From a virus, in IMG/VR virus record IMGVR_UViG_3300035698_017435, positions 1 through 30,596 of that record: a DNA stretch of 30,596 nucleotides, one strand, 5' to 3'. This document shows, one piece after another, positions 3,046 to 27,682 of this stretch. The notes under the pieces are model-generated. The model was not told the DNA's origin, made no database searches, and was given only the letters and a program-made list of their open reading frames with translations. The number at the start of each line of letters is the position of its first letter. Positions within the stretch are counted from its first letter, which is position 1. The position numbers and the translations under genes were made by a program.

Positions 3046-3443
3046 GCCCTTACCTACAAGCCGCCATCCTCTACTCCAACGCCGGCGATGTCGAAACCCG
3101 CTACACATGGAACGAAGTAATCACCTACCATCTCCACTATGCCCACGTCCTCTCTACCCCCACCGGTTTCCTACTCGCTCGGCCAGTCATTTCCACATTA
3201 ACAGACACGCATGGAACCCTAGACCCCCTTCACTCCCCGACATCCTCAGATTGTTGGCATATTTGGGCAGCAGCCGGAAATCTCCCGGAGTTACTGAGTC
3301 AAGCGCGCCTCCACCCGCTTCCCTTCGTTTCTTGGAATCGCCGGCAAAAATTCCGGATATATTCTCTCGATGTAGTCCTCGCCCGCCATGACAAAAACAC
3401 CCAAAGCCCCCGCAGCTCCACCGCCACCACCGCCACCGGTTAA
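3042..3443 (+). CDS. Hypothetical protein downstream of terminase, 133 aa
   Basis: Its start overlaps the terminase stop (ATGA), a common sign of translational coupling. The protein has no membrane span. The most protein-like stretch is the second half, with CWHIWAAAGNLPELL and FVSWNRRQKFRIYSLDVVLARH. The last 18 or so codons overlap the next small ORF in another frame and look like low-complexity read-through (Ser/Thr/Pro). I do not recognise the family. One copy of the recurring CCCTTCACT nonamer (3226-3234) lies inside it. By position it could be a small morphogenesis factor, but nothing in the sequence proves that. Confidence 0.6.
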   Translation: MSPYLQAAILYSNAGDVETRYTWNEVITYHLHYAHVLSTPTGFLLARPVISTLTDTHGTLDPLHSPTSSDCWHIWAAAGNLPELLSQARLHPLPFVSWNRRQKFRIYSLDVVLARHDKNTQSPRSSTATTATG

Positions 3444-6787: not shown

Positions 6788-6816
6788 AACCCGCCCAGAA
6801 ATGGCGCGGGTTTTTT
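6788..6816 (+). terminator. Rho-independent terminator after the scaffold gene
   Basis: A hairpin with AACCCGC pairing GCGGGTT, an inner CC/GG pair, one bulged C and a six-base loop, followed directly by a run of six T. It ends the early head operon before the capsid gene. Confidence 0.88.
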
Positions 6817-6850
6817 CTTACCCACTAAACCCTAACTTTCACGACAAACC

Positions 6851-6888
6851 CCCTTCACTCCCGCACCTCCTAAAAATAGCCCAACGTC
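6851..6888 (+). promoter_or_regulatory. CCCTTCACT leader-type element upstream of the capsid gene
   Basis: The 271-nt gap between scaffold and capsid holds the terminator, then CCCTTCACT (6851-6859), and after a shorter spacer CTCC and AATAGC (6875-6880). That is the same order as in the two long elements at 22806 and 26084. Here no ATG follows at the +44 position; the capsid ATG is 185 nt downstream. The rest of the gap shows only a small GTCT/AGAC hairpin (6886-6897) and no other feature I can support. The element could be a promoter or regulatory site for the capsid transcript. Confidence 0.45.
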
Positions 6889-7035
6889 TAACCAGACAGA
6901 CAACCTGATCTCTTTTCGATTTCGGCCCCGTCCCTTCCGCAAGCCACTGGACACGCCCCGCAAGGACAACCGCCACCAGAAGCCAGCAACTCATCCCTGC
7001 CTCTTCTAATCAAAATCTAATCGAAAACTAAAATC

Positions 7036-7965
7036 ATGGACACCGTCCCCGACCACTTCACCACTCAGTTTGGTAAAAACTTTGAGCCGCTCGCAGCTCA
7101 AACCGTCTCCCGTCTCCGCAATTGCGCCGTAGTAACTACCGGATGCACTGGCGAGTCAAAGACTCATAATCAAGTTCACTCTATCGTTTCCAAGGAAACG
7201 ACCGGCGAACGCTACACCCGCCTCCAACAGAAGGATCTCGAAACCGAGAAGCGCTGGAACCACATCCGCACTTTCCGGGGACTCTCCTCCGAAAGTGAAT
7301 GGGACGAGCAAGCACTTGCTCCGACCATCATGGGAAATGGAACCCACGTAATGCAGCACAGCGCCGCATACGCTCGCCAGCTTGACAGCGTGCTCATCGA
7401 GGGACTCCTTGGCGAAAACGTAGTTGGCAAAAAAGGCACCGAATCCAAGAACATCACGCAGAGCGTCTCCGTGGATTTCGTGGCATCCGGCGCAGCAGCC
7501 GAATCCGGCCTCACCGGTCCAAAGGTAATCGAAGCAGTTAAAATGCTGAAAAAATCGGAAGCCTTCAACGCTGAAAAGCAAGCCCAAGGCGTCAAGCTTT
7601 GCGGCCTGATGAATGCCGAACTCGAAGCGCAACTCCTCCAGTCCGCTAACTCCCCCAACGGAGACCGTCTCTTCTCCAAAGACTTCCTCCCTCCCGTCTA
7701 TGACGAGAATGGAACTCTTAAGTTTTGGCTCGGAGTCAACTGGATGTCGATCGAAGCTCTCCGCATTAACGAAGCGGACGACCAGATTGTCGAATCCGCT
7801 ATCTGGACATCGGACGGCCTCTATCTCGATATTTGGCAGGACCTTAAAGTGCATGTCGATATTCTCGCCGAACTCGACCACGCGGTCCAGTTCACCTCGA
7901 AATACGCATTCAACGCGACACGTCGCCAAGAAAGCCAAGTCGTCCGCATCAACGCGCATATCTAA
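7036..7965 (+). CDS. Major capsid protein
   Basis: A 309-residue HK97-fold-type major head protein by content and position. The pattern matches the phage capsid family common in phages of this gene order (Phage_capsid_2-like): an N-terminal region with FTTQFGKNFEPLAAQTVSRLR, then SIVSKETTGERYTRLQQKDLETEKRW, a central region with the small insertion KKGTESKNITQSVS, and a C-terminal strand region TLKFWLGVNWMSIEALRI...IWTSDGLYLDIWQDLKVHVDIL. The length is normal. It forms a short unit with the next gene between two strong terminators, which fits the need for high, separate expression. The start follows an A-rich leader without a Shine-Dalgarno site. Confidence 0.88.
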   Translation: MDTVPDHFTTQFGKNFEPLAAQTVSRLRNCAVVTTGCTGESKTHNQVHSIVSKETTGERYTRLQQKDLETEKRWNHIRTFRGLSSESEWDEQALAPTIMGNGTHVMQHSAAYARQLDSVLIEGLLGENVVGKKGTESKNITQSVSVDFVASGAAAESGLTGPKVIEAVKMLKKSEAFNAEKQAQGVKLCGLMNAELEAQLLQSANSPNGDRLFSKDFLPPVYDENGTLKFWLGVNWMSIEALRINEADDQIVESAIWTSDGLYLDIWQDLKVHVDILAELDHAVQFTSKYAFNATRRQESQVVRINAHI

Positions 7966-12519: not shown

Positions 12520-12563
12520 CCCTTCACTACCTAGCACTTTTTAAACCCCCTAAAGTCAGAGAA
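12520..12563 (+). promoter_or_regulatory. Leader element: CCCTTCACT 44 nt before a start, with inverted repeat
   Basis: CCCTTCACT begins at 12520, exactly 44 nt before the ATG at 12564. Between them, ACTTT (12536-12540) can pair with AAAGT (12552-12556). The layout matches the elements at 22806 and 26084, but the stem sequence is different. Confidence 0.6.
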
Positions 12564-13010
12564 ATGCACCTCCGCCCCTTCGCGATCAACCCCGGCACTC
12601 GCCGAATCGCCGCGGAAGATTTCTCTCTCATCTCTTCATGGTGGACAGCGCGGAACCAAGAATCTCCCTCTCTTGAAATGCTTCCGGGACTTGGCTTCAT
12701 CGCCTTTGATAAAGAGAACGGAACACCACTCGCCACTTGCTCCGCTTACCTAGACGCCACCGGCTCCGGAGTTGCCCGCCTCGCCTACGCCGCCACAAAC
12801 CCAGCAGCCTCCCCGCTCGCCCGTGGCAAAGCGCTGGCGCACGTCCTCGATCTCCTTATTCAACACATCCAGTCCCTCAATTACTGGCTCATCAATGCGT
12901 CATTTAACCAGCCGGCACTCCTCCGCTTTCTAAAAAAACATAATTTCCGAACAGCCGAAACCGTCCCCATGGAAAATCTTTACCTCAACCTCGCAACATC
13001 ATGGGAGTAG
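12564..13010 (+). CDS. GNAT-type acetyltransferase-like phage protein
   Basis: A 148-residue protein between tail nozzle and ejection-protein genes, a place where such phages often carry a GNAT-fold protein of unknown substrate. Visible family features: SSWWTARNQESPSLEMLPGLGFIAFDKENGTPLATCSAYLD (residues 24-64), a helix LARGKALAHVLDLLIQHIQSLNYWLINAS, and the end ...PALLRFLKKHNFRTAE, the usual helix then strand 'L-x-x-F-L-x-K-x-x-F-x' of GNAT C-termini. The acetyl-CoA pyrophosphate loop (Q/RxxGxG/A) is poorly kept, so catalysis is uncertain. It overlaps the next gene by 10 nt. Its start has a special leader element. Confidence 0.72.
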   Translation: MHLRPFAINPGTRRIAAEDFSLISSWWTARNQESPSLEMLPGLGFIAFDKENGTPLATCSAYLDATGSGVARLAYAATNPAASPLARGKALAHVLDLLIQHIQSLNYWLINASFNQPALLRFLKKHNFRTAETVPMENLYLNLATSWE

Positions 13011-13483
13011 GGGCCGCCATGTTAGTCGGGAGCCTGGTCTCCACCGGGCTCGCCGTTTATGGAGCAAAGCAAGAAGGCAAAGCCGCCCAATCCGCAGCAA
13101 GATACAACAACGCCCTCGCCCAAAGAGAAGCCAATAACCTCGAAGCAGAATCAACGGAGAACATCGCCCGCCAGCGGATCAATAACCGCCGGCAAATGTC
13201 CACCCTCCGCGCGCGCGCCGCCGGCTCTAACATCATTAGCACATCCGGATCCTCCGCCCTGGTCCTCGAAGACGCCGCCGGCTCCATGCAAATCGGCATT
13301 GCAGACGCCGCCCGCTCCGCCGGGATCCAGTCAGAATCGATCCGCCAGAAAGGGAAAATGGCGCTCTATGAAGGCGACCAAGCAAAAGCCGCCAGCAAAG
13401 GCAAAGCTCTCGCCATCGGCATCTCCGGACTTACCTCCGCCGCCGGCTCCGCTTACGGAAACTATCGCGTTGGCAACAAGTAG
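13001..13483 (+). CDS. Small internal virion / DNA-ejection protein (T7 gp14-like)
   Basis: A 160-residue protein with a Gly/Ala-rich hydrophobic N-terminus (GVGAAMLVGSLVSTGLAVYGAKQ), a long charged helix with QREANNLEAESTENIARQRINNRRQMSTLRARAAGSNI, then SGSSALVLEDAAGSMQIGIADAARSAGIQSE and a second Gly/Ala helix at the end. This pattern is shared by the smallest of the three T7-type ejection proteins, which leave the capsid first and insert in the outer membrane. It is followed by two larger candidates for the other ejection proteins in the expected order. The start overlaps the GNAT-like gene. Confidence 0.8.
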   Translation: MGVGAAMLVGSLVSTGLAVYGAKQEGKAAQSAARYNNALAQREANNLEAESTENIARQRINNRRQMSTLRARAAGSNIISTSGSSALVLEDAAGSMQIGIADAARSAGIQSESIRQKGKMALYEGDQAKAASKGKALAIGISGLTSAAGSAYGNYRVGNK

Positions 13484-13507
13484 CTTTCTCCCCTCACTCA
13501 TTTTCTT

Positions 13508-14965
13508 ATGATCCGGATCGACACCCCCCTCGCCCGCGCCACCCCACTAGGAGCGCCCCAAATGTCCGCCAGTGCAGCAGCCGCTCCCGCCCGCGCACTT
13601 CAACAAGTCGCCGGAGCGATTGGAAACACCGCCCAACAATTCACCAACCTTGGCCAGCAGCTCGCCCGCCAAGACAACGCCCGAAAACTTTCAGAGGCTC
13701 GCCAGTCCCTCGCAGCCAACTACGCCCAATTTAACCTCGATCAAGAGAAGGAAAACGACCCGCAAGCCCGGATCAATAACACGGCCTCATTTCTAGCCGC
13801 ACAGAAAAACCTCCTCGACCAACCAGACTACGCCCCGGAACTCAAAGACCAGCTTGCCGATCACTTCACATCCTTTTCCAGTCGCGCCTCCATTGACCAA
13901 TCACAGAGCGCCGCCGCCCTCACTAGCAAACGCGCCAAACTCGCTTTCGAGAACGAACTCCAAACCGCCCACCGCACCGGCGACCGCGAAACTTTTGAGA
14001 ATGCCAAAGCATCCGCCCAGGACGGACTCAACCTCCTACCGGAAGAAATCGATTCACTCGATCGAGACTTTGCCCACACCGAGCAACTCCTCAAAGCCGA
14101 GGCACTCATCGCCTCCGATCCTCTCATCGCCGCCGAACTCATGGCAGATGGCTACTTCGACCAAGAAAACGAGCTTCTCACTCCCCGAGACAGACAGCGC
14201 CTCATACGCCAAGCAGAGGGAGCGGTTCAAGAAGAACGCTCTAACGAAATCGAAATACTTGAGGACACCTTAGCCGCCGGGGAACTCACCGAGGAAGACA
14301 TCAATTCCGCCGCGTTCCTCTCAAATAAAGATAAACGCGCCTTCACTAAGGCCATCCAGAAGGAGACCCCTCCGGACTCCCAAGCATACTTTGCCGCATG
14401 GGGAATTCTGGACACTCTCCGCGACCAGCGCACCGACCCCTCCATCTCTAAAGAAGAATATCTCCGACTCCATTCAGAGGCACGACTCGCCCTGGTGGAC
14501 TCCGTTCACCCGACATTCAGAGGAGATTTGAAAAAGGAACTCTCCTACCTCACCCCAGCAGGACGAAACACGTCAGAGGAAGCCAGAAAAGCCCCAAACT
14601 TTTCAGACCTTAACGCTCTCGCCCGCGACCAGATCAAGCGCGCCTATGATGCAGGCATGTATGGCGACACCTCGAAAGAGTCAGACTTCCCGACAAAAGA
14701 ACGCGCCGCCCGACAAGCAGAGGACAACCGCCGCCAAGTGGAACGATTCATTGAACTAAACAATCCCTCAGTGGAACAGCTCCGCAAGGAAGTTGAAAGA
14801 ATCAACGGCCATTCCCTCGACAGCTCCGCCGCTCTCATCCCAGCTCTCCCAGCTCCCGTTTCCATCACCGCCGAGGAGCTAAACGAATTACTTAAAACCA
14901 ACGCGCCTCTCATTCCGGACAGCTCCGGAGCAAGCGGTTCACTCCTCCCTCCAATAAGCCGCTAG
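13508..14965 (+). CDS. Internal virion / ejection protein (T7 gp15-like position)
   Basis: A 485-residue, almost fully helical, strongly charged protein without membrane span or signal peptide. It begins with an Ala/Pro-rich stretch, then AGAIGNTAQQFTNLGQQLARQDNARKLSEARQSLAANYAQF, a long helix typical of phage ejection proteins of this position. Later parts repeat helices rich in Glu, Arg and Leu (for example RQRLIRQAEGAVQEERSNEIEIL). Position between the gp14-like gene and the giant ejection protein supports the role of the periplasmic tunnel component. Assignment rests mainly on gene order and helical content, not on motifs. Confidence 0.72.
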   Translation: MIRIDTPLARATPLGAPQMSASAAAAPARALQQVAGAIGNTAQQFTNLGQQLARQDNARKLSEARQSLAANYAQFNLDQEKENDPQARINNTASFLAAQKNLLDQPDYAPELKDQLADHFTSFSSRASIDQSQSAAALTSKRAKLAFENELQTAHRTGDRETFENAKASAQDGLNLLPEEIDSLDRDFAHTEQLLKAEALIASDPLIAAELMADGYFDQENELLTPRDRQRLIRQAEGAVQEERSNEIEILEDTLAAGELTEEDINSAAFLSNKDKRAFTKAIQKETPPDSQAYFAAWGILDTLRDQRTDPSISKEEYLRLHSEARLALVDSVHPTFRGDLKKELSYLTPAGRNTSEEARKAPNFSDLNALARDQIKRAYDAGMYGDTSKESDFPTKERAARQAEDNRRQVERFIELNNPSVEQLRKEVERINGHSLDSSAALIPALPAPVSITAEELNELLKTNAPLIPDSSGASGSLLPPISR

Positions 14966-14979
14966 CAACCTTCTCTTTA

Positions 14980-17900
14980 ATGTCTGAACTACAAAAAGCC
15001 CTCGAAGGATTCACTTCCGTCCCAGAAACAACCGCCTGGAACTCCCTTAAATCTCTCCAAGAAGCAAAGAAAAATCCCGAACTCGTCGCGGATCCACAGC
15101 AAGCCAGCCTCCTCGACCAACAAAAAAACAATCTTCGCTCCTACGTCACAGAGCGCGCCGCCTACGGCCACGATCTTTTCCCCAACCAAATCGCCGCCGC
15201 CAATAAAAAGCGCAACGAGAGCCTCCAGAATCTTTACACAAAGCCACTCGAAGAATCTCTCCCAGAGGAAAACGTCGCAAGGATCAATCGCCTAGCAGAT
15301 TTCACGGCAGACCCGGAAGAGTTTCGCCAGCGCACCATCAATCGCTCCTATCTCTCCGCAACCCTTGGCCGTGAAATTCCCGCAGAGCAATACGACGCCA
15401 TCCGCCAAATTTACGCAAAACAACACCTCGACCTGGATGGAGATAGTTCAGACCGCGCCGTCTTCAACGCCATTAAGAACCGCTACTCCGAGGAAGCCAC
15501 CACCACCGGCCAGATTCAAGAAATTTCCAGAGACTCCTTCTCCGCCATTATCAAAGGAGAAACCGGAACCGCTCCCACTCTCTCCAAGGAACAGCTCGAA
15601 GCCGTCCCTCCCCGCCTACGAGAAGCCGCCGTTAAGCAGTATGAAGCCAGCATCCGCGCCGCCCGCCGCAAGCACCGCCAATTAACCCCTATCGTTGACA
15701 AGCTCGCCGAGTCTCTCCTCAAAATGGGGAAAGAACTTAATGACGACCGGAGTGCTTTAAGCTTTACCGGCGACCATCTCATCGACACCCGCTCCCTTAT
15801 CGAGCTAGTCCCAAAGGATCCAGCAGACCGCGCCCTCACTCTCTCACTCCTCTCGGAAAAACTCAAAGAGGCCGAGCCAGTAACAAACGACGGAGCGAAT
15901 GCCCGGATGCTCAAAAGCCAGAGACGCGGATCCTTTGATGCAGTTGTCAAAGCTCTCACCCTTCCGCTCGCTTTAGGCGCTGAACTTCGCGCCAAAGTTG
16001 ACGGGACAGAAAAAGAGTTCCTGGAAGCCGAAGACGGCCAACTCATCGCAAAGCAACTCCGCCAAATCTATTTCCAAGAAGGCGACCCGGTCCGCTCCTC
16101 AACAGATGGATTTGTTGCCGACTCACTCATCCTCGCCTCGGGCTCCGCTTGGACTCTCCCCGCCATTCTCGCCGGTCCGCTTGGGTATGGAACAATGGCC
16201 TCATCTTTCGCACAAGACTCCTACGAGGACGCCAGAATCGAAAACCCAGAAGCAGACCGCAACGCCCAGCGCCTCGCCGGAATAGGTTCTGGCGTAGCCC
16301 AAACAGTCGCCGAGACCGTCCTTACCAAAGTAGGACTCAAGCTTACTTTTGGGAAAATGCCACAGCTTGCCGGCGTCCTCAATAAAATCACCACCAAGCC
16401 CATCCTACGCGGAGCCATTGGCGGAGCCGCCCGTGGAACAGGCGTGCTTGTTGCAGAATACTCCGAGGAAGCCATCCAAGGAGCGATCGATGAAGGAGCG
16501 CAAGACCTCGCCCTCGTATTCTCCGAACTCGCACCCCAAACCAATTGGAAAGGTTTCTTCGGTGAATGGCTCACAGTTGCAGGAGCAGAACAGCAGGACG
16601 CCCTCAAAGCGATTCTCCCTTTTGCCATCATCGGAGCCGGCGGAGGATCCATTCAGCATTTCAAATATGGGGCCCAACTCACACGCAACGCCTCCATTCT
16701 TCACGATCTAGGCATCCCAGCCGAACGAGTCAAAGCGATCGTTTCCCAGACCGACCCCGTCAAGATCGACCAGCAAATCAAAGAAGCTTTTGAGGAAGGA
16801 CTCGAGACTCGAACCGCTGAGCAAAAGTCTCGAGTCCTCGAAACTCTCCGGGAAGCCGCCAAAGCCCGCGAAGCCGCTGGCATTCCTACCGTTTCCCCAG
16901 TAACCAACGAGTTTACCGAAGACACCACATTCGACTACACCGACCCAATTACACGGGAAACCACGTCTTTCGAGACCGAGGAGGAAGCGCTCCTCCATTG
17001 GAGAGACCGCGCCCAGCTCACCGAGGAAGCCCAGCTCGAATCCATCCGCCAGGGAGCAACCGAGCAATCACTCGACTCCCTCACAGACGAAGGAAAAGCA
17101 TCCGAGGACACCCGTGTCATCGAAGACGAATACACCGGCAACATTGACCGACTTATCAAAATGGGCCTCACCACACAAGCCCAGGTCGATGCGCGGATCC
17201 GCGTCTATATTCTCGAGAACGGTCTCACCCCAGAGGAAGCAGTCAAAGCCACCGAATCCGTCACAATCAAAGCCATGTCCGTCCAAGAGTTCACCCGTGA
17301 AGGACAAGCACTCTACACCGTCCGCCTTTTTAAAGGCCACAACCCACTAGACATCTTCGAAGACTTTTCAGAGGACGCCATCAAACGCTACATCGAAGAG
17401 GGAATCGTCTCTCCGGAGCAAGTCCTCGCCGACCTCCGCGCCTACCAGACCGCCAGCAATTCCAACCTTGGCCTCCCAGTCGATTACGAATACACGCAAG
17501 AAAACGACCTCCCACTCATCGAAGCTTTCTCGAAGCTCGCCCGCGCCCATGTCGTCGGATCCGCCAACTCCGAGCTAGTCCCAGCCAAAACGCGCGATTG
17601 GATCAATCTCTATTCCTCCATTGCCGGCTACACCGCCGGAAATGCGGACGCCATCGCTAACGACATCGACCGCGCCGGCACACTCCGCAAGCAGACCGCC
17701 GAGGGGAAAGTCCCCGCCCGGCTCCTCGACATCATTACCGACTCCGTGGGAATGAACGAGACCCAGACCATGGCCCGCCTCGAAAAGAAATATGAGGAAC
17801 AGCTCGCCGCGGAAGCGATGGAAGGTTTTCCGGAAATTCAAGAGGAAGCCAAAGGACTCCTCCCTCACCCAGAAACTCTCCGCAAAGATAACCACCCGCT

Positions 17901-20900
17901 CACCGGAGAAGTGCAGCGCCTTTGGGAATCCCTAAAAAAACCCACCCGCCGCCGAGACAAGACCGGCCGCACCATCGACCGCACTAACGAGGCCAACGCA
18001 TTCTTCCTCCCAATCGGAGAAAAAATAGACCTCGATCTAGTCCGCCGACGCATGGAGGAAAAAGGTTTCGAGCTCGACACACCCGCCCAGCTCCTCGAAG
18101 CCCTCGAACTCTCCATCTCCTACGGTAAACCCATCTACGGAACCCTCTCCTCCGCAGAACCATCCTTCTCCATCGCTGGCAATCGAGCAGGCGAAAGCCT
18201 TATGGACTCCCTCTCGCCAGAGCAACACAGTCAAACTCTCATTGACAAAATCGGAGAGGATGCGCTACGCTTAGAGCAACCGCGAATTCCATATGCAAAG
18301 AAACTCCAAGACATCCTCGATTTCTCTAAGTCCATCTTCGGAAGACTTAAATCAGGCAATGAAAAAGGGAGTGATTCTGGAAGACGTGGCGGACTATCAG
18401 TTATCCGCCAAAGGCTCGCCGACAACATTTCCACAGACCTCAAAGTCAACTTCCTTGGAGAAACAGTCTCCAACATCGAAGACCTAGCAGTCAAAGCGCA
18501 GGCATTACGCAATCCGCGCTTCGAGACTTTTTACCTCATAGCCCTAGTAGATAAAGGCAAGGGCTGGCTTGTCAAAGACGCCATGGCAGTGACCGCCCGC
18601 GTCCCTAACTCCGCCCCATTATTTGCAGAGGGAAGCTCTTGGGACGAAGGAATAGAGGCCCACCGCCAGTTTCTAAAAACGGCAGAAGCGGACTCCTACG
18701 TCCTAATCCACAACCATCCATCCGGAGACACATCCCCCAGCACCGCCGACGTTAGAATCACCACCGGCTACACTACGGACATGACCGCCGCTGGTGGGCC
18801 TCCTATGCTTGAGCATATCGTCATCAATCACAAAGAATTCACTACGATCAATCGAGACGGAAACATCAAACGCGCAAAGCTCCCAACCTACAACCCCGAC
18901 CCTTTCGCATGGCCCAATCCCGGCACCGAAATCCAAAAAAACGCCAATAGTTCTGAAAGACTTGTCGGAATTGCTCAGGGAATGACAGAGGCCAAGCAAA
19001 ATCCCGATCTAATCATCGGCTTCTATCTGAACGCCCAGCTTCAAGTCGTCAAATCCGTGCAAGGAACCATTGAGGAAATTCTCGCGGTGGACTTTTCAAA
19101 GACCGTTATAACTGCCCGAGAGCAGGGAGCTATCTATTTCAGCGTCCACGCCCAAACCACAAACCGAACAGAAGCCAAAAACCTTATAGACCGCCTCCAA
19201 CCTCTCAATGATTCGGGAATCCTTCTCGATGCAGCCATAGAGTTTGAAACAGAAAGCAATGGAATCTCCTATATCGGAGCAGTCGATGAAGGATTGTTCA
19301 AAATTCCTCCAGTATTTTTCGGCGCAACGGAAGCTTTCCAACACTCTCGCATTCAAGAAACCCCAGTCTCCCTTGAAACAGCAAAATCCCCGCAGACATC
19401 CTTTGCCCTCTCTCCCCAGGGCATCAATCGCCTGGAGCGCGCCATTGCTCACCGACTCAATAAAGAGCCACGGGAACGCGCCGAGTTCTACGAAAAAGTC
19501 CGCAACCGCATCGCCGCCCTAACCCAGCAGATCGAAGACATGGAAAACGGAGTGGGCATCTTCGCACGCAAGGCCACCGACGAAATCGGAGAAGAACGCA
19601 GGCGCATCCAAGACGCAATCGGCGAAGCCAAGGCGATCGTTGCATCCCTCCCAGTCGAAGCACGCGGAAAAGTCACCATCGACTTTGCCGACATCACCGG
19701 GAAATCAACCGAGAAAGGCAGGATCAAAGCATTGCTCCGCCTCATCGATCAAGCAGACAGCGCCCTCGAAACGGTTTTAAGAACTCAATACACCCAAGCT
19801 TTCGAGAAGCTCCTCGACCTCGCATCCCCAGACCTACGCCAAAACAAAGGACTACGCGGAAGGCTCACCCCGGAGACCCAGCGCCTAGTCAACGCAATCA
19901 TCCCGCTCATTCACCTCACACCCACACAAGTCTCCGCCCGCCTCATCGGAGCCCAAGCCAACTACGACGCCCTCGAATCGAAATACCCCGAGACCACCGA
20001 CGAGAACCTTGTCGAAGAATGGGAGGCAGAACTTGCCACAGAACAGCAAAATATTGATCTCCTCGAAACCTTTGGAGCCCTCACCAACTCCACAGCAGCA
20101 GAACTCTCACAAGCCTACGACCACCTCCTCACCATCTACACACGCGGACGCACCGCCCGCCAGATCATCGACCAGAACAACCGCCAAGAAATCGCAGGCA
20201 TGAAGCGCGAAGTTCTCGACTCCATCGGCGGACGAGTCTCCCAAATGAAATGGGCAAAGCGGACGGCCGACAAGGGATTAAAAGACCTCACAAAGACATT
20301 GCTCCTTAGCGATATGTCCTCCTTCCATCAAACGATGGAAAGACTTTTCCCGAAATCTCCGACCGCTCGCCTATTCCAAGACCGCCTCCGGGAGTCAGAG
20401 CGCTCCGTCACCCGTGCCAAGATCAAAGCCCGCGAACGCTTTGAAGAATTCACCCGCAACGCCTTCAATCTCTCCGGAATAGCCGCGAAGAGGAAGATGA
20501 ACAGCACCCTCGCCACTCTCTCCAAGCGCCGCACCTTTGACATCGAGACCGCAGAGGGAACACGTTTCGAGACGGAGAAGATGTCCGAAGAGCAAGCGGC
20601 CGCAATCCTAGCCGGGGAAATGAAAACTGGATGGGAAATGGACCGAATCGCCATGGAGTCCCTCCGCCAGTCCCTTGCAGACTTCCGCCTCCAACGTCTC
20701 ACCGCTCAAAACGAACAAAAAGCCTTTAGTAAAAAGGTCGTGCGCTTCCAACGTCTCACATCCCGAGGAGTCGCCGGCAATCTCCGGATGAGCGACATGG
20801 AAGCGCTCTACTATCTCCAACTTGCCGATCAAGCTCAATACCTCCCAGCCCTCGATAAATACGGATTTACCCAATCCGTTCTCGAAGACATCAAAGCCCA

Positions 20901-22797
20901 GATCGATCCGAAAGCCCTGGTAATTGGCTCCCATCTACGGACCGAATATAACGAGCAATACAAACGCCTCAATCCCGTTTTCCAACGGCTTTACGGCCTA
21001 GACATGCCTCAAATCAAAAACTACACCCCCGGCCTATTTGAGTCCCTAGACACCCGCTCCGAATCAGTCAACCCAGACGGAAGCACCGGCCCAGTCAATG
21101 CCATGTCCGCCGGTTTCACAAAAACACGCAGCCACCACACCGCCCGGCCTAAGCAATCAAACGCCCTCGCAAACTATTGGGCCTCCCTGGAATCGACCGA
21201 GTATTTCATCGCCTACGCGGAGACCATGCGGGACATGCGCCAAGTCTTCCGCTCCCCCGACCTACGCCGCGCCATCGAAGGAAACTACGGAACACGCGAA
21301 GCCGCTAACTTCTCCAACTGGCTCGACGTGCTCGAAGTGGATGGCCAGAACCGCGCAGCAAAAACGCAGGGCCTCGCAGAAGTGACCCAGAACATGCTTG
21401 CCGCCCAGTCCGCTATCGGCCTCTCCTTCAACCTCGGAACAATCTTCAAACAGTGGTCCGCCGGACTTGGACATTTCATGATGGAACCAACCACCGACGC
21501 GATACGCGGCACGTTCCTCGCCATCTCAGACCCCTCCTCGCTTAAAATGGTATGGGGATCCGAATCCGTGCAGCAGCGGATCCTCCAAGGCATGAACCCG
21601 GAGGACAAGCGCATCCTCGAAGCAGCCCGCGCCAGTCCGTCCCTCGCCATGCAACTCCTCGACGCGGGCCGGCTCCCCATCGCATGGGCGGATGCAGCCT
21701 TCACCACCCTTACGGGAGCCGCGTCTTATAAATCACAATACGACCGAGCAATCAAAGCCGGACTTTCAGACTCCCAAGCACACGAAGCCGGACTGATCCA
21801 CATGGACCGCATTATCGTAAAGACCGCCCAGCCTGCCACCACACAGGACAAGTCTCTCGCCGAAAATACCGCCCACGGCTTTGCGAAAGCTTTGTTTCTA
21901 TTCCGTTCAGACCCTCGACAAAAGTTTGCTATTAGCGCCAACGCCGTAGCCCTTGCCAGTGCAGGAGAGATAAGCAAAGGAGCCGCCGCCCGGAGAATAT
22001 TCTTCTCATGGTCAATCTATGGACTCATGGGCCAGATGGCTGGAGATATTTGGAAAACCATTTCTCGAGACGGAGACGACGAGGATAACTGGGAACCCCG
22101 CGACTACCTCGCCGCCATGATCGCCGGACCACTCTCCGGACTCCCGCTCCTTGGCCAAGGACTTGAATTCGCCATCTTTTCCACGATTGGTAAAGGTGGA
22201 TTTTCATCATCCGCTAACCCGATCGACAAGACCATCGCCTCTATCATCCAGGCCAAAGGCTCGGCCGTTTATCGCGATTGGAACACCGACGACCTCACAA
22301 TCCAAGACTTCCTCCGGGACGCTGGCAACTACTCTCAACTACTTGGAGTTTACAACGCAGGTTTTGCCATAGTCCCCGCCGGTTTCCGTGCAGCCCGCGA
22401 TAGCTACGGAATCGCCAAAAACGCAAAGGATCTAATCTTCGGAGAGTCACAGGACGAGAAAGTCCGCCGCATCATTTCCGAGGAAAAAGACACACTCAAA
22501 GAAAAGCGCGACGACTCCACCGCCCGCATCGAAACACTCACCGCCGAACTCCTCGACCTCCCCACTAAACAGCAAGAGTCCCGCCTCGCCCGCATGGACA
22601 AAGCCACTAGCCGCCGCGTGGCGCCGCGCCTACGCAAAGCCTCCATGACACAGCAAGAGCTCGCCCTCTCTCGTCTCACCATAGACTCCCGCGCCCGTGC
22701 CATCACCCGCATCATCGCCACGCTCCCAGAGCAAGACCGTCCCACTTATCTCGACCGCTTAGAGTCTCTAAAACTCTACGACCCGAAAGATAAATAA
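14980..22797 (+). CDS. Giant polyvalent-type ejection protein with JAMM (RadC/MPN) domain
   Basis: At 2605 residues it is the largest gene, placed where T7 has gp16, so probably packaged and ejected with DNA. Seen in order: helical N-terminus (1-330); Gly/Ala-rich hydrophobic segments near 376-405, 477-500 and 540-556, candidate membrane-inserting parts; a charged linker region; a RadC/MPN-like domain (about 1170-1300) with a JAMM zinc motif HNHPSGDTSPSTAD, ligands H1244, H1246 and D1257; a Phe-Ala-Leu-Ser-Pro boundary (near 1475) followed by long coiled helices to about 2000; a segment MPQIKNYTPGLFES and ARPKQSNALANYWASLESTEYF (about 2010-2075) seen in large polyvalent phage proteins; a hydrophobic region (about 2335-2400); a basic helical tail. 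The JAMM fold is known in isopeptidases and in RadC-like phage proteins. No lytic transglycosylase motif was found. Substrate unknown. Confidence 0.85.
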   Translation: MSELQKALEGFTSVPETTAWNSLKSLQEAKKNPELVADPQQASLLDQQKNNLRSYVTERAAYGHDLFPNQIAAANKKRNESLQNLYTKPLEESLPEENVARINRLADFTADPEEFRQRTINRSYLSATLGREIPAEQYDAIRQIYAKQHLDLDGDSSDRAVFNAIKNRYSEEATTTGQIQEISRDSFSAIIKGETGTAPTLSKEQLEAVPPRLREAAVKQYEASIRAARRKHRQLTPIVDKLAESLLKMGKELNDDRSALSFTGDHLIDTRSLIELVPKDPADRALTLSLLSEKLKEAEPVTNDGANARMLKSQRRGSFDAVVKALTLPLALGAELRAKVDGTEKEFLEAEDGQLIAKQLRQIYFQEGDPVRSSTDGFVADSLILASGSAWTLPAILAGPLGYGTMASSFAQDSYEDARIENPEADRNAQRLAGIGSGVAQTVAETVLTKVGLKLTFGKMPQLAGVLNKITTKPILRGAIGGAARGTGVLVAEYSEEAIQGAIDEGAQDLALVFSELAPQTNWKGFFGEWLTVAGAEQQDALKAILPFAIIGAGGGSIQHFKYGAQLTRNASILHDLGIPAERVKAIVSQTDPVKIDQQIKEAFEEGLETRTAEQKSRVLETLREAAKAREAAGIPTVSPVTNEFTEDTTFDYTDPITRETTSFETEEEALLHWRDRAQLTEEAQLESIRQGATEQSLDSLTDEGKASEDTRVIEDEYTGNIDRLIKMGLTTQAQVDARIRVYILENGLTPEEAVKATESVTIKAMSVQEFTREGQALYTVRLFKGHNPLDIFEDFSEDAIKRYIEEGIVSPEQVLADLRAYQTASNSNLGLPVDYEYTQENDLPLIEAFSKLARAHVVGSANSELVPAKTRDWINLYSSIAGYTAGNADAIANDIDRAGTLRKQTAEGKVPARLLDIITDSVGMNETQTMARLEKKYEEQLAAEAMEGFPEIQEEAKGLLPHPETLRKDNHPLTGEVQRLWESLKKPTRRRDKTGRTIDRTNEANAFFLPIGEKIDLDLVRRRMEEKGFELDTPAQLLEALELSISYGKPIYGTLSSAEPSFSIAGNRAGESLMDSLSPEQHSQTLIDKIGEDALRLEQPRIPYAKKLQDILDFSKSIFGRLKSGNEKGSDSGRRGGLSVIRQRLADNISTDLKVNFLGETVSNIEDLAVKAQALRNPRFETFYLIALVDKGKGWLVKDAMAVTARVPNSAPLFAEGSSWDEGIEAHRQFLKTAEADSYVLIHNHPSGDTSPSTADVRITTGYTTDMTAAGGPPMLEHIVINHKEFTTINRDGNIKRAKLPTYNPDPFAWPNPGTEIQKNANSSERLVGIAQGMTEAKQNPDLIIGFYLNAQLQVVKSVQGTIEEILAVDFSKTVITAREQGAIYFSVHAQTTNRTEAKNLIDRLQPLNDSGILLDAAIEFETESNGISYIGAVDEGLFKIPPVFFGATEAFQHSRIQETPVSLETAKSPQTSFALSPQGINRLERAIAHRLNKEPRERAEFYEKVRNRIAALTQQIEDMENGVGIFARKATDEIGEERRRIQDAIGEAKAIVASLPVEARGKVTIDFADITGKSTEKGRIKALLRLIDQADSALETVLRTQYTQAFEKLLDLASPDLRQNKGLRGRLTPETQRLVNAIIPLIHLTPTQVSARLIGAQANYDALESKYPETTDENLVEEWEAELATEQQNIDLLETFGALTNSTAAELSQAYDHLLTIYTRGRTARQIIDQNNRQEIAGMKREVLDSIGGRVSQMKWAKRTADKGLKDLTKTLLLSDMSSFHQTMERLFPKSPTARLFQDRLRESERSVTRAKIKARERFEEFTRNAFNLSGIAAKRKMNSTLATLSKRRTFDIETAEGTRFETEKMSEEQAAAILAGEMKTGWEMDRIAMESLRQSLADFRLQRLTAQNEQKAFSKKVVRFQRLTSRGVAGNLRMSDMEALYYLQLADQAQYLPALDKYGFTQSVLEDIKAQIDPKALVIGSHLRTEYNEQYKRLNPVFQRLYGLDMPQIKNYTPGLFESLDTRSESVNPDGSTGPVNAMSAGFTKTRSHHTARPKQSNALANYWASLESTEYFIAYAETMRDMRQVFRSPDLRRAIEGNYGTREAANFSNWLDVLEVDGQNRAAKTQGLAEVTQNMLAAQSAIGLSFNLGTIFKQWSAGLGHFMMEPTTDAIRGTFLAISDPSSLKMVWGSESVQQRILQGMNPEDKRILEAARASPSLAMQLLDAGRLPIAWADAAFTTLTGAASYKSQYDRAIKAGLSDSQAHEAGLIHMDRIIVKTAQPATTQDKSLAENTAHGFAKALFLFRSDPRQKFAISANAVALASAGEISKGAAARRIFFSWSIYGLMGQMAGDIWKTISRDGDDEDNWEPRDYLAAMIAGPLSGLPLLGQGLEFAIFSTIGKGGFSSSANPIDKTIASIIQAKGSAVYRDWNTDDLTIQDFLRDAGNYSQLLGVYNAGFAIVPAGFRAARDSYGIAKNAKDLIFGESQDEKVRRIISEEKDTLKEKRDDSTARIETLTAELLDLPTKQQESRLARMDKATSRRVAPRLRKASMTQQELALSRLTIDSRARAITRIIATLPEQDRPTYLDRLESLKLYDPKDK

Positions 22798-22805
22798 AAA
22801 GAACG

Positions 22806-22849
22806 CCCTTCACTCTTCCCCACCCGGCGGCTCCGCATAATAGCCGAGC
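22806..22849 (+). promoter_or_regulatory. Leader element of the tail fibre gene
   Basis: CCCTTCACT starts exactly 44 nt before the ATG at 22850. CGGCT (22828-22832) pairs with AGCCG (22842-22846) around nine bases. The stretch from CTCC (22831) to the ATG is nearly the same as in the endolysin leader at 26109: CTCC, then CAyAATAG, then CGArC. Confidence 0.6.
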
Positions 22850-24691
22850 ATGAGCCAGCCTACCCTTACCGCAAACGGAACCACTTCTTTCCTCACCTTC
22901 CCCGGTCGCGAGTATTCCCTCGCCTTTTCCGGATCCTTTGGTGGCGGTTCACTCGCCATCGAATACCAAATTGGAGCAACCTGGAATCGCTTTGAATTCT
23001 CCCCGCTCACCACCGGCAGCAATTTCCGGTTCATAGCTCCATCTAAAGCCGTCCGCCTAGTCCTCTCCGGATCCACCTCATCGGACATCGCCATCGCCTT
23101 CTCGATAGCCGTTGACGGAGCAATCCTAAACTCTTACTCCCGTGGTCTCATCCGCCCCGAAACCGGAGAGTCCTATCACCCAGATACTCCGACCGAAGTG
23201 CTCGCTCGAATCAATGCGCGCGCGCTAAGATTCGACCAGGACCAAACCCTTTCGACGGCCGACCAATTACAGGCCCGCCAGAACGCCGGCGCCGCGTCGC
23301 AGGCGGATCTCGATGCAGAGGAGACAGCGAGAGCGGCCGCAGTAACCTCGCTTCAATCCGCGATCACAGCTCTGCAATCCATCCTCGCCGCCGACGATGT
23401 TGATCTCGACACAGCTCAGGAGCGTATCGACTTTATTAAAAACCTCTCGACCGAGTTAGACGGCCTTGGCATTGCGGACATTCTCGGACTGCAAGCCGCG
23501 CTCGATGCAGAAGCGGAAGCACGGGCTGCAGCGGATTTGGAAGCCGGGCTTTCTGGCAACTCGTTTATCGCTGCATATGGTGACGGGGCTGATGCAGTCG
23601 CTAACGGCGAAGCTCTAAAAGATGCCTACACCGCTGCGAAAGCTCTCACGCCTAACGGGGCGGCACTCTCTGCAACCAATCGCGCGTGTGTCTTGGTATT
23701 CTCTGGCCGCTACGATTTAGTAGCGGCTACCGACACCAACGGAATAACCCTCGATGCTGAGTTCGTCGATTTAATCGGCGTTGGCGCAAGAGAGAATGTC
23801 TGGATCACCAGCGTAGGCAGAACGGTCGCTCAGACTGCCAATGATGTCTTGATTCAAGGAATGACACTAGAGAGTGCCAGTGATGCCGTTGGTATATCGA
23901 ATGACGTCGCGTATTATCCAAACACCAATCTTCCACTTACCAAAATGAAGGATGTGAACTGCGTTGGGACTAATAAAGGCCGTTCGCATAGAAACCAAGT
24001 GGATTTTTCAGGAACATTCACGAACTGCACTGCTGGAGATGCTGGCTTCGGCGGCAGCAGCGGCACAGCTTCAGGAACATTCACTGACTGCACTGCTGGA
24101 GAGAGCAGCTTCGGCGGCAGCGGAGGAACAGCTTCTGGAACATTCACTGGCTGCACTGCTGGAGATGAGAGCTTCGGCAGCCAAGGAACAGCTTCAGGAA
24201 CATTCACGAACTGCACTGCTGGAGGTGTAGGCTTCGGCGGCAGCAGCGGCACAGCTTCAGGAACATTCACTGACTGCACTGCTGGAGAGTATAGCTTCGG
24301 CGGCAATCGTAACTTCGGCGGCGGAGGAACAGCCACAGGAACATTCACCAGATGCACTGCTGGAAATAGAAGCTTTGGCGGCAACAGCGGCACAGCCTCA
24401 GGAACATTCACTGGCTGCACTGCTGGAGATGAGAGCTTCGGCAGCGAAGGAACAGCTTCAGGAACATTCACGAACTGCACTGCTGGAGGTGTAGGCTTCG
24501 GCGGCGTAGGCACAGCTTCTGGAACATTCACTGACTGCACTGCTGGAGAGTATAGCTTCGGCCGTTACGGCACATTCACAGGGAATCTATACAAATGCCG
24601 CGTAAAAGTAGGGGAGTTTGAAACGGTCTCAGGAGGAGGCATTACGCGCCTTTGCCTAGACGGATCAAGCGTAGAAAACAACCAAGGATAA
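22850..24691 (+). CDS. Tail fibre / receptor-binding protein with Cys-ladder repeats
   Basis: 613 residues. The N-terminal 120 residues are beta-rich and likely the virion anchor. Residues about 125-235 form coiled coil, with the segment ILAADDVDLDTAQERIDFIKN, a type common in phage tail fibres. Residues about 240-385 look like a right-handed beta-helix start (ACVLVFSGRYDLV, ANDVLIQGMTLESASDAVGI). From residue about 388 come nine repeats of 20-21 residues, pattern GTASGTFTxCTAGxxSFGG, each with one Cys at the same place. A short cap (NLYKCRVKVGEFETVSGGGITRLCLDG) ends it. The stacked repeats predict a beta-solenoid shaft or tip. Third codon positions are less C-rich from about 23560 onward than in the other structural genes, so the distal part may have been acquired. 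The next gene is 4 nt downstream. Confidence 0.85.
   Translation: MSQPTLTANGTTSFLTFPGREYSLAFSGSFGGGSLAIEYQIGATWNRFEFSPLTTGSNFRFIAPSKAVRLVLSGSTSSDIAIAFSIAVDGAILNSYSRGLIRPETGESYHPDTPTEVLARINARALRFDQDQTLSTADQLQARQNAGAASQADLDAEETARAAAVTSLQSAITALQSILAADDVDLDTAQERIDFIKNLSTELDGLGIADILGLQAALDAEAEARAAADLEAGLSGNSFIAAYGDGADAVANGEALKDAYTAAKALTPNGAALSATNRACVLVFSGRYDLVAATDTNGITLDAEFVDLIGVGARENVWITSVGRTVAQTANDVLIQGMTLESASDAVGISNDVAYYPNTNLPLTKMKDVNCVGTNKGRSHRNQVDFSGTFTNCTAGDAGFGGSSGTASGTFTDCTAGESSFGGSGGTASGTFTGCTAGDESFGSQGTASGTFTNCTAGGVGFGGSSGTASGTFTDCTAGEYSFGGNRNFGGGGTATGTFTRCTAGNRSFGGNSGTASGTFTGCTAGDESFGSEGTASGTFTNCTAGGVGFGGVGTASGTFTDCTAGEYSFGRYGTFTGNLYKCRVKVGEFETVSGGGITRLCLDGSSVENNQG
24011..24579 (+). repeat. 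Nine in-frame 60/63-nt repeats in the fibre gene
   Basis: GGAACATTCAC recurs at 24011, 24074, 24137, 24197, 24260, 24338, 24401, 24461 and 24521, spaced 63, 63, 60, 63, 78, 63, 60 and 60 nt, always in frame. A degraded tenth start lies near 24569. Units 3-5 (from 24137) and 7-9 (from 24401) are nearly identical over about 160 nt and lie 264 nt apart, pointing to a recent segmental duplication inside the gene. Confidence 0.92.
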
Positions 24692-24695
24692 CATT

Positions 24696-25202
24696 ATGGA
24701 ATTTACACCAACACAACTCGCAATCGCACTAGACCACCTCGCTAAATCACGCGATGCCAATGTAGTCCCCTCAGTAGATTACATTTTCGGCGTCACCGAA
24801 CGTCCTGAAATCTCACAGGAGCTACGTTCAGAGATGGAGACCATGACCACCGAGGAGCGAAGAGCTGCAATGCCTAAATCCGTTTGGGGAATCACCCACT
24901 GGGACACTGCTAAACTTGGTGTCGAGCCTACTATTACGGAGATTGAGAGTGCAGTGGCCGCGCCCGTGCCCACCGAAGTAACCAACTACCAAGTCAAGCA
25001 GGCGTTAAACGCCACACCAGCGGACCGCGAAACAGTCGAAGCCCTGATCTCAGAGGCAGACCAGAATACTAAAGATGGCTGGAATCATGCCTCCACAATC
25101 AAACGCTCAAACCCATTGTTTATTGCGGCAGTCGAACAGCTTGGCTGGTCTAAGGAAAAGATTGATGGCCTTTTTATTCTCGGAGCTACGTTTCATTTAT
25201 AA
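24696..25202 (+). CDS. Probable tail fibre assembly / accessory protein
   Basis: 168 residues, starting 4 nt after the fibre stop, with an AAGGA Shine-Dalgarno-like site seven bases before the ATG. The N-terminal half is acidic and unremarkable. The C-terminal part, VTNYQVKQALNATPADRETVEALISEADQNTKDGWNHASTIKRSNPLFIAAVEQLGWSKEKIDGLF (split here only by domain), follows a pattern common in phage proteins next to tail fibres: a short helix 'qvk.aL', a helix 'veali', a W, an 'R.nP' turn and 'lg...e.iD.lF..A'. These are thought to be fibre chaperones or tip proteins. Position makes an assembly role likely; the precise job is inferred. Confidence 0.7.
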   Translation: MEFTPTQLAIALDHLAKSRDANVVPSVDYIFGVTERPEISQELRSEMETMTTEERRAAMPKSVWGITHWDTAKLGVEPTITEIESAVAAPVPTEVTNYQVKQALNATPADRETVEALISEADQNTKDGWNHASTIKRSNPLFIAAVEQLGWSKEKIDGLFILGATFHL

Positions 25203-25205
25203 GCC

Positions 25206-25304
25206 ATGAACCCCACAGGCGAGACGATAGCAGCACGGATCATCCTGCATCTCCGCTGCATCGCCCGCCATCTGCTAGGAATCCTCCGAGAATTTAAAAA
25301 ATGA
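25206..25304 (+). CDS. Possible 32-aa ORF coupled to the spanin gene
   Basis: The ATG at 25206 is 3 nt after the previous stop, and its TGA overlaps the spanin ATG (ATGA at 25301-25304). The product, MNPTGETIAARIILHLRCI followed by ARHLLGILREFKK, is a basic amphipathic helix without a clear membrane span. The tight fit between two genes is the main support; it may only serve to couple translation. Confidence 0.4.
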   Translation: MNPTGETIAARIILHLRCIARHLLGILREFKK

Positions 25305-25897
25305 ACCGCCCACATCTAACCCTTTGTTGCCTAGCCCTACTCGTCGCATCTTGTGGCGTGCAGGCTCCTCCGCGCGCTATCATCGCACCACCTCCGCCCG
25401 TCTATAAAGTTGAACCCCGAGATGTGGCGGACTCCGTGGCCAAGGTTTCTAAAGCCACCACCGCCGCCAGTGATCAAGCAGCCAAGGCCACGACCAAAGC
25501 CCTCGATCTAACCAAGGCGCTTGATCTAATCCCTATCACCTCAGAGACCAAGAGACAGCTCCAAACCGCCAAAGTCCTAGCCGGCCAGCTCAACCAGGAA
25601 CTCGCCACCACCCAGACCGCACTCGACGCCGTCACCAAAGAATCAATCACCCTTACCCGGAACTTCCAGACCCTCACCCGCGACCTCGCCGTCAACGAGT
25701 CCCAGACCTACGCACTCCAACAAGAAAACGCTACGCTTCGCGAATACGCCACCATCGCCAACACCACCAACGACCAGCTCGCAGCAGAGCGAGCGCTTCA
25801 CAAAAACACCAAGAAAACCCGCAACCGCTTTGCCGGCATCTCCACTCTCCTCGCTATCTCCACCACCGCTCTCCTCTACCTCCTATTTAAACCATGA
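25301..25897 (+). CDS. Probable unimolecular spanin: lipoprotein with C-terminal membrane span
   Basis: 198 residues. The N-terminus is a lipoprotein signal: hydrophobic LTLCCLALLVAS followed by Cys18 (V-A-S-C lipobox). Then comes a Pro-rich linker (about 21-38), long Ala/Gln/Thr-rich helical, coiled-coil-like segments (about 40-165), and a C-terminal hydrophobic span, residues about 177-195 (FAGISTLLAISTTALLYLLF). An acylated N-terminus in the outer membrane joined to a C-terminal inner-membrane anchor is the layout of u-spanins such as T1 gp11, which fuse the membranes at the last step of Gram-negative lysis. The neighbours (endolysin, small membrane proteins) agree. One caution: the basic cluster KNTKKTRNR lies before the span, opposite to the positive-inside rule for that topology. 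A cell-surface lipoprotein is the alternative. Confidence 0.72.
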   Translation: MNRPHLTLCCLALLVASCGVQAPPRAIIAPPPPVYKVEPRDVADSVAKVSKATTAASDQAAKATTKALDLTKALDLIPITSETKRQLQTAKVLAGQLNQELATTQTALDAVTKESITLTRNFQTLTRDLAVNESQTYALQQENATLREYATIANTTNDQLAAERALHKNTKKTRNRFAGISTLLAISTTALLYLLFKP

Positions 25898-26064
25898 AAT
25901 CACCAAACGCCTCCGCTCCCCGCCGCTCCACCCTCCGCAATTCCATTTTCGCGTTTGCCTTTGGGATTATTTGCCTCCCTATGGGCTGGCTTGTAGCCGC
26001 GCTTGTCATCATCTCGCTCGCATTCATCAATCTACTTCTTGGCAGTCTTCTTAAAGGCTACTAA
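25894..26064 (+). CDS. Small membrane protein, 56 aa, holin-like candidate
   Basis: The ATG overlaps the spanin stop (ATGA) and the frame ends at TAA 26062-26064. The N-terminal 16 residues are polar and basic (KSPNASAPRRSTLRNS). Residues 17-53 are almost entirely hydrophobic (IFAFAFGIICLPMGWLVAALVIISLAFINLLLG), long enough for one long or two short membrane spans with a Pro-Met-Gly break at 29-31. The tail is LLKGY. Size, charge distribution and place between spanin and endolysin fit a small holin or pinholin; no family motif is recognised. Confidence 0.62.
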   Translation: MKSPNASAPRRSTLRNSIFAFAFGIICLPMGWLVAALVIISLAFINLLLGSLLKGY

Positions 26065-26083
26065 GTAATTAGTAACAGGGAGT

Positions 26084-26127
26084 CCCTTCACTCCCCGCCC
26101 GTCTATTGCTCCACACAATAGACGAAC
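26084..26127 (+). promoter_or_regulatory. Leader element of the endolysin gene, with 9-bp hairpin
   Basis: CCCTTCACT begins exactly 44 nt before the endolysin ATG. CGTCTATTG (26100-26108) pairs perfectly with CAATAGACG (26116-26124) around CTCCACA, ending 3 nt before the start codon. If formed in the mRNA, it would cover the ribosome landing site, giving a way to delay endolysin synthesis. Confidence 0.65.
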
Positions 26128-26733
26128 ATGAACGCCCTCGAAATCACCCGGATGCAACGCCGCATCGTGGACTCCTACGCACCCGAAGACCGCGATGGAT
26201 CCGACGATGGTTTCTGGGGACCTATCTCACAAAAAGCATGTCGTCGCCATCTTCGCGCACTCATGCCAAAAGTCAGCCCTTGGCCTAAATCAGACCAACA
26301 ATCTCTCCGTAATTTTTACGGAGAGCCGGGCAATGAGTCACAACTCACCATGATCGACTTTCCCTATCCCATGCTATTCGACGGGAAGAAAGTCCGCCGG
26401 ACCCGCGTGCATCACAAAGTTGCCTGTTCCCTCCTCAAAATTCTCGAAGCCATCGAAAAGCTACATGGCACCGATCGAGACATCATGGAAGAGGCAGAGG
26501 ACTACGGTGGCGTCTTCAACTTCCGCAATAAACGCGGAGGCCGCTCTTACTCCGTGCACGCCTACGGAGCCGCGATCGACCTAGACGCAGACGACAACTC
26601 CTTCCGCAATAGTTGGCCAATGCAAGCCGACATGCCCCTCGAAATCATGGAAGAATTCGCCAAAGAAGGATGGATCTCCGCCGGTGCCTTTTGGGGATAT
26701 GACGCCATGCACTTCGAGGCCACCCGGCACTAA
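26128..26733 (+). CDS. Endolysin: M15-family peptidase (LAS-type carboxypeptidase)
   Basis: A 201-residue peptidoglycan-cutting metalloenzyme. The C-terminal domain has the M15 zinc and catalytic pattern: SVHAYGAAIDLD with H144 and D151, and DAMHFE with H195. The segment FNFRNKRGGRSYSVHAYGAAIDLDADDN and the closing GWISAGAFWGYDAMHFE match the L-Ala-D-Glu/D-Ala-D-Ala endopeptidase type of phage endolysins. The N-terminus (RMQRRIVDSYAPEDRDGSDDGFWGPISQKACRRHL in part) resembles a short peptidoglycan-binding module with its DG-x-WGP motif. No signal peptide, so export would need a holin. It starts after a hairpin-bearing leader. Confidence 0.9.
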   Translation: MNALEITRMQRRIVDSYAPEDRDGSDDGFWGPISQKACRRHLRALMPKVSPWPKSDQQSLRNFYGEPGNESQLTMIDFPYPMLFDGKKVRRTRVHHKVACSLLKILEAIEKLHGTDRDIMEEAEDYGGVFNFRNKRGGRSYSVHAYGAAIDLDADDNSFRNSWPMQADMPLEIMEEFAKEGWISAGAFWGYDAMHFEATRH

Positions 26734-27629: not shown

Positions 27630-27657
27630 TGGTTGCGGGAGCAGGATTTGAACCTGC
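27630..27657 (-). other. Probable attP core: 3' end of a tRNA gene (likely initiator tRNA)
   Basis: On the minus strand this holds a complete T-arm (GCAGG, TTCAAAT, CCTGC), then the acceptor strand TCCCGCA, discriminator A and an encoded CCA (27632-27630). Nothing upstream completes an anticodon or D arm, so it is only the last 28 nt. An A at position 72 before discriminator A73 is the mark of bacterial initiator tRNA (C1-A72 mismatch). The minus-strand integrase ends 25 nt away, the usual place of an attP that restores the tRNA on integration. Confidence 0.78.
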
Positions 27658-27682
27658 CCGCATCTTAGAGCGTAGTGGAATC

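Follow-up and report, generated by a model that had tools for sequence, protein, structure and literature searches.

A putative late-gene control site with genome-specific spelling in an uncultured family of podoviruses, and a MarR-fold protein as its candidate reader

Introduction

What does a nonamer do that stands exactly 44 nt upstream of three start codons in the genome of an uncultured phage, and which protein might read it? The question arose in the IMG/VR record IMGVR_UViG_3300035698_017435, the whole of which (30.6 kb) was analyzed here and is called the window. Its structural proteins form an epsilon15/phiV10-like podovirus set (portal, capsid, tail proteins, and endolysin), and it also encodes an integrase. 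When its portal and terL were compared with the isolate phage collection, every match had less than 60% identity, and no close cultured relative was found there. A preliminary description of this DNA proposed that the nonamer CCCTTCACT is either a phage-specific promoter with a leader or a translational control element, in which the inverted repeats between nonamer and start codon are selected as RNA hairpins.

Phage late genes can be placed under the control of phage-coded factors in several ways. The middle and late promoters of phiEco32 are served by the sigma factor phi32_gp36, and the late promoters of phage 7-11 by SaPh711_gp47; in phiEco32, the promoter is a single contiguous element, tAATGTAtA, which has no -35 box and starts transcription 6-8 bp downstream (PMC8948821). 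In T4 late transcription, the host polymerase is redirected at late promoters by phage factors (gp55, gp33, and the sliding clamp) (PMC2988020). Conversely, repressors of the mycobacteriophage L5 type bind more than 20 asymmetric 13-mers that are oriented with transcription and located in promoters and short intergenic spaces (PMC9283540).

In this study, we report an analysis of the nonamer in the window and of its counterparts in related phage records, which are referred to by L numbers. By sequence comparison, CCCTTCACT is identified as the window phage's spelling of a family-wide, contiguous 14-16-nt site of putative late-gene control. The site is co-evolving and most likely a promoter or activator site, and a predicted MarR-fold protein encoded upstream of terS is the best candidate for the factor that reads it.

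Results

Copies of the nonamer in the window

The window contains five copies of CCCTTCACT, all on the + strand (Table 1); no reverse-complement copy was found there. Shuffled sequences gave an expectation of 0.36 copies and a maximum of two (100 shuffles), and the arrangement CCCTTCACT-N35-ATG, with 44 nt from the nonamer to the ATG, has exactly three matches in the window and none in the shuffles. The counts, the spacing, and the argument against chance made in the preliminary description thus hold, as do the strings CTCC, AATAG, and CGArC at equal positions in the copies before the fibre-like and endolysin genes. A similar string, CTCC-TAAAAATAG-CCCAAC, lies before the capsid gene at 6867-6885, 9 nt nearer to the nonamer. 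As a separate observation, a second string, CTCCnnAnAATAGnCnAnC, is shared downstream of three of the five nonamers (6867-6885, 22831-22849, and 26109-26127), and was not seen in relatives.

The two copies outside the 44-nt arrangement had been given minor status, one as a shorter variant before the capsid gene and the other as a bare nonamer inside an open reading frame (ORF). Both are where they were said to be, but both belong to the conserved set: the string ACCCCCTTCACTCCC was found at the two copies in a motif-blind comparison within the genome, and the copy inside orf133, upstream of the portal gene, has conserved homologues at this place in relatives.

The element in related phages

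The exact nonamer stands before an ATG in none of 20 related records, which taken literally is the refuting outcome named in the preliminary description (related phages that lack the nonamer). The absence is misleading, however, because the spelling of the element changes between lineages. The family consensus is about YTTnCCCCnSTTMAAT, and strings such as TTCCCCGCTTCAAT and CCCTTCAATCGCC occupy the equivalent positions in relatives: in orf133 upstream of the portal gene, after the scaffold terminator and before the capsid gene, about 40 nt before the gene that follows tail-tube B, and before fibre or giant virion genes. Each genome has 4-5 such sites, all of them ahead of late modules. Sites homologous to the window copy after tail-tube B have TTCAnT 39-41 nt before the ATG in L006, L011, L017, L018, L028, and L186. 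Individual genomes repeat their own spelling, TTCCCCGCTTCCCT twice in L016 and TTCCCCTTAAATT twice in L020; other spellings are TTCCCCGCTTCAATT in L028, CTTGCCACCCCTTAAA in both L187 and L196, and TTCGCCACCTGTTCAA in L181. At the orf133 site, relatives read TCC CCG CTT CAA (SPLQ) and the window CCC CTT CAC (PLH), so that the window copy keeps the local spelling at the cost of one amino acid.

The capsid gene is preceded by a terminator, the element, and a leader, in this order, and a terminator-like stem precedes the element in relatives too. In L199, an insertion of small tandem repeats (GGGTGCTTCAA..CACCCTTCAACCACCCATTGAA) separates the scaffold terminator from the element at the capsid gene.

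A collection-wide scan for TTCCCCGCTTCAAT hit mostly unrelated contigs, with two copies in one locus only in L229 and L280, which are the family members L028 and L005; portal queries for further family members yielded nothing new, and in unbiased 8-mer counting upstream of genes the signal was swamped by the GC-rich background.

Spelling is shared within genomes and differs between lineages

Permutation of genome labels over two sites in nine clades gave 131 of 144 identical bases, against 102.6 expected (p 5e-6). The sites for this permutation had been picked by eye, and the comparison was therefore repeated without reference to any motif, by taking the best ungapped match between fixed regions upstream of the capsid and portal genes in 22 genomes. 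The mean best match was 13.5 on the same strand within genomes; it was 8.4 with the reverse complement and 8.8 when different genomes were paired, and a match of at least 11 was reached in 15 of the 22 genomes, versus 1/22 for the reverse complement and 9% between genomes; the best match coincides with the element. A spelling that differs by lineage yet is common within a genome is what would be expected if a phage-coded factor reads the element.

Spacing, orientation, and promoter features

The distance to the start codon is nearly constant. With the capsid copies excluded, about 25 of 28 intergenic sites have their TTnnnT 38-44 nt ahead of the start codon, and the genes that follow include non-homologous ones; at three sites the start is ambiguous (L017 26515, L026 9160, and L028 21186). 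The capsid copy stands 176-190 nt from its start codon. Sites run on the coding strand, and in L028 (41.7 kb) all four are on the + strand of the late half, while the sole match in the early half has three mismatches.

No second conserved box (-35 or -10) was found from -60 to +50 around 24 sites, and the absence of -35/-10 hexamers about 17 bp apart agrees with the earlier view that the element does not fit a sigma-70 promoter. AT content around the sites is highest in the TTMAAT core itself. The AATAG of the window was considered as a -10-like box and rejected, as relatives do not keep it.

Hairpins before the start codons and the capsid-leader RNA

The inverted repeats reported between nonamer and ATG are present as letters, but only that of the endolysin leader (CGTCTATTG/CAATAGACG) folds better than shuffled sequence (z -5.2); the two other leaders are at chance (z 0.0 and -0.4). 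At the homologous gene after tail-tube B, the leaders of L006, L011, L017, L018, and L028 have no predicted structure. Selection on hairpins before these genes is unsupported because two of the three window leaders fold at chance and the relatives' leaders are unstructured; with stems that are not conserved, a translational-control hairpin maintained by compensatory changes before the three start codons was rejected for the window and these five relatives. The endolysin repeat, of which no counterpart was seen before other genes or in the leaders of relatives, is possibly a separate operator or a lysis-timing structure.

Covariation, which had been proposed as a check on these three stems, appeared in another place, downstream of the capsid copy. 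There the leader is conserved over roughly 150 nt and contains an RNA structure that covaries across the family. The first helix, P1, consists of two parts with an AYWAY internal loop. Its covariation is strong: over 22 leaders the score was 0.604, compared with 0.270 when shuffled, with 40 versus 14 doubly changed cells, and the signal collapses once partners are slid. RNAalifold independently recovered six P1 pairs, all with compensatory changes, when P1 was aligned alone; MAFFT with RNAalifold on the full capsid leader misaligned it and gave three pairs only. The window's version of P1 is a divergent one, and Rfam has no match for the capsid-leader RNA. In relatives, the ACAAYC loop apparently recurs in a second arm (CGACCCGC..GCGGACAATCG).

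A candidate reader encoded beside terS

In 17 of 19 records with terS, the gene immediately before terS, which it usually overlaps, codes for a small protein; of the two exceptions, L006 ends there and L187 has an integrase at this place. The gene lies in the early lytic operon by terS and not beside the integrase. The fold predicted by AlphaFold2 is a winged helix (mean pLDDT 85; above 90 in the core), and the closest Foldseek matches in the PDB are MarR (1jgs) and MepR (5fb2), with a TM-score of 0.62-0.64 and 8-21% identity among the matches listed. The protein has no Pfam match above the cut-off and no relative in the isolate phage collection at E 0.01. Several members of this MarR-fold family begin with QLxF or QLELF, a start that recalls clamp-binding peptides.

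Protein distances were compared with distances in element spelling by a Mantel test over 13 genomes, with portal, terL, and terS as controls. The MarR-fold protein gave the correlation r 0.61, as against 0.54 for orf133 (which itself carries a site), 0.47 for portal, 0.30 for capsid, 0.03 for terS, and -0.07 for terL; its partial correlation given portal was 0.45 (p 0.0002). By these correlations, the MarR-fold protein is the best candidate for the factor.

Other features of the window

The genes that follow the element are listed in Table 1; the 'GNAT-like' label once given to the gene at 12564 has no Pfam support. The giant virion protein of 2605 aa (14980-22797) has homologues of 2550-3193 aa in relatives; RadC/JAB is its sole recognized domain, and it was rejected as the bearer of a polymerase signature. 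Between portal and scaffold, orf185 (5270-5827) is present in 21 of 21 genomes compared, with a low-complexity N-terminus and a conserved C-terminal part. An integrase at 430-1413 abuts terL. A second integrase-like ORF lies on the minus strand at 27683-28951, and the adjoining tRNA-3'-end-like sequence at 27632-27679 (GGTTGCGGGAGCAGGATTTGAACCTGC) is probably an attachment site.

Table 1. Features of the window discussed in the text
Feature	Position	Strand	Remarks
Element copy	3226..3234	+	Inside orf133 (3042-3443), 344 nt upstream of portal ATG; homologous copies in relatives
Intrinsic-terminator-like hairpin and T run	6788..6819	+	After scaffold gene, upstream of capsid copy; read directly
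Element copy	6851..6859	+	Before capsid gene
Helix P1 of capsid-leader RNA	6892..6934 (approximate extent)	+	Covariation; conserved leader runs to 7035
Major capsid gene	7036..7965	+	Downstream of 6851 copy; phrog_3437 major head protein, E 2.4e-27
Element copy	12520..12528	+	44 nt before start codon of gene after tail-tube B
148-aa gene after tail-tube B	12564..13010	+	phrog_17252, function unassigned; no Pfam match
Element copy	22806..22814	+	44 nt before fibre-like gene
613-aa repeat-rich fibre-like gene	22850..24691	+	Downstream of 22806 copy; no PHROG or Pfam match
Element copy	26084..26092	+	44 nt before endolysin gene
Perfect 9-bp inverted repeat CGTCTATTG/CAATAGACG	26100..26124	+	Just before endolysin start codon; sole stable hairpin among three leaders
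Endolysin gene	26128..26733	+	phrog_17001 endolysin, E 4.8e-27

Discussion

A probable promoter or activator site and its proposed phage-coded reader

The proposal of a promoter or translational element finds support in its first half, as position, spelling, and spacing support a phage-specific late-gene site, and not in its second, which relied on the hairpins. In our view, the element probably forms the core of a late promoter, or an activator site, for a phage-coded DNA-binding protein, with the MarR-fold protein as the best candidate. According to this model, a phage-coded protein would recognize the element directly before each late module (portal, capsid, the genes after the tail tube, fibre, and lysis) and, when bound, would cause the host RNA polymerase to initiate shortly after it. 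The resulting leader would have about 30 nt, and before the capsid gene a structured leader of 170-190 nt would be formed.

Several points weigh against this model. In the motif-blind comparison, 4 of 22 genomes (L025, L188, L191, and L193) had no clear shared site, and in GC-rich members there is no AT-rich stretch at the expected -10 place, except for the TTMAAT core. Beyond its three control proteins, the Mantel test contains no correction for ancestry, and ribbon-helix-helix (RHH) regulators were left out of the distance comparison. MarR proteins usually bind palindromes as dimers, and the site here is asymmetric. Neither terS nor an obvious early replication region is present in the window record, so that the window phage's own regulator is not visible. 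Finally, the search for a T7-type RNA polymerase (PF00940), which found no match in 14 mostly incomplete records, was silent in control genomes as well, and the absence of such a polymerase therefore rests mainly on the ORF list of L028, in whose early half neither a sigma-like gene nor a large polymerase ORF is evident.

A bolder form of the model, which we put forward only tentatively and regard as doubtful, makes the MarR-fold protein a late-transcription activator or sigma substitute that would recruit the host RNA polymerase to late promoters of a single box. Its N-terminal QLxF might couple this to replication, and protein and spelling would co-evolve so that each lineage would have its own orthogonal pair.

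Alternative explanations

The main rival, although unlikely, is that the sites resemble stoperators, at which a lysogeny repressor would block late-gene transcription in the prophage. These phages carry integrases, and the sites are asymmetric, oriented, located in short intergenic spaces, and spelled by lineage, as are the 13-mers and stoperators of L5-type repressors (PMC9283540). L5, however, has its far more numerous sites in promoter operators as well, while the few found here are confined to late modules and stand at a nearly constant distance from the start codon. In the early half of L028, where a repressor would be expected to act, no site has fewer than three mismatches; the candidate binder is encoded in the early lytic operon, away from the integrase; and the repressor of the L5 type, a monomer with two domains, does not resemble MarR.

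Recognition by a host sigma factor, housekeeping or alternative, would require no phage factor at all. No phage polymerase or sigma gene was identified, and a single-box promoter with a TTMAAT core can be imagined, but the spelling varies genome by genome within one phage family, which makes such a host promoter rather improbable. Moreover, the degenerate pattern occurs just once in the 4.5-Mb Akkermansiaceae metagenome-assembled genome (MAG) that holds the relative L180 (pairing uncertain). The 11.9-Mb Acidobacteriia MAG that holds L179 (pairing likewise uncertain) has 11 matches, mostly one recurring string and several near contig ends. This comparison covers the MAGs of L180 and L179.

An RNA-level signal, in which a phage protein or a small RNA would bind the mRNA or the mRNA would be processed, with an effect on translation or stability of late messages, is quite improbable. 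The near-constant distance to the start codon and the structured RNA that follows the capsid copy speak for it. The capsid copy itself, however, is 176-190 nt from its start codon, and the orf133 copy of the close clade lies inside another gene; the stretches that separate element and ATG show neither structure nor conservation, and the window has no reverse-complement nonamer as a possible antisense seed.

A promoter for a T7-like single-subunit phage RNA polymerase is very improbable. The structural genes are those of T7-like podoviruses, the site is contiguous, strongly conserved, and lineage-specific, and CCCTTCACT recalls the T3 promoter core ACCCTCACTA. Against this stand the negative PF00940 search, with the limits given above, the lack of a suitably sized ORF in the early half of L028, the giant 2605-aa protein with only its RadC/JAB domain, and the absence of a G-rich start after the site. 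Dispersed repeats that serve recombination at module boundaries and play no role in expression are the least credible alternative: the copies do mark gene boundaries and stay similar to one another within each genome, but their near-constant start-codon spacing and uniform orientation speak against it, as does the copy that lies within a gene and whose spelling changes the encoded protein.

Relation to known systems

The promoter or activator model places the element near those of phiEco32 and 7-11, in which several late sites per genome also occur at conserved gene positions and the element also changes between relatives, there as the phage factor diverges (PMC8948821). Unlike the phiEco32 element, the one described here is longer (14-16 nt), C-rich, and followed by a start codon 38-44 nt on, and the candidate factor has a predicted MarR fold, no sigma factor having been identified. 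Redirection of the host polymerase at late promoters would be a feature shared with T4 (PMC2988020), although the T4 element is unrelated in sequence and neither a gp55-like sigma nor gp33 was found here. The candidate shares the predicted winged-helix fold of the MarR family (MarR 1jgs and MepR 5fb2), from which it differs in having no Pfam match above the cut-off and, if the link is right, an asymmetric target.

Implications for the family

For late-gene control in this uncultured podovirus family, the present analysis supplies a putative site, its spelling in more than 12 lineages, and a candidate reader protein, and matched and mismatched pairs of site and protein can now be compared directly. 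A further regulatory lead, independent of the first, is the covarying RNA of the capsid leader. If the proposed reader is the true one, the means by which phages redirect host transcription would be extended by an unexpected protein fold, and the family would hold a set of orthogonal promoter-activator pairs.

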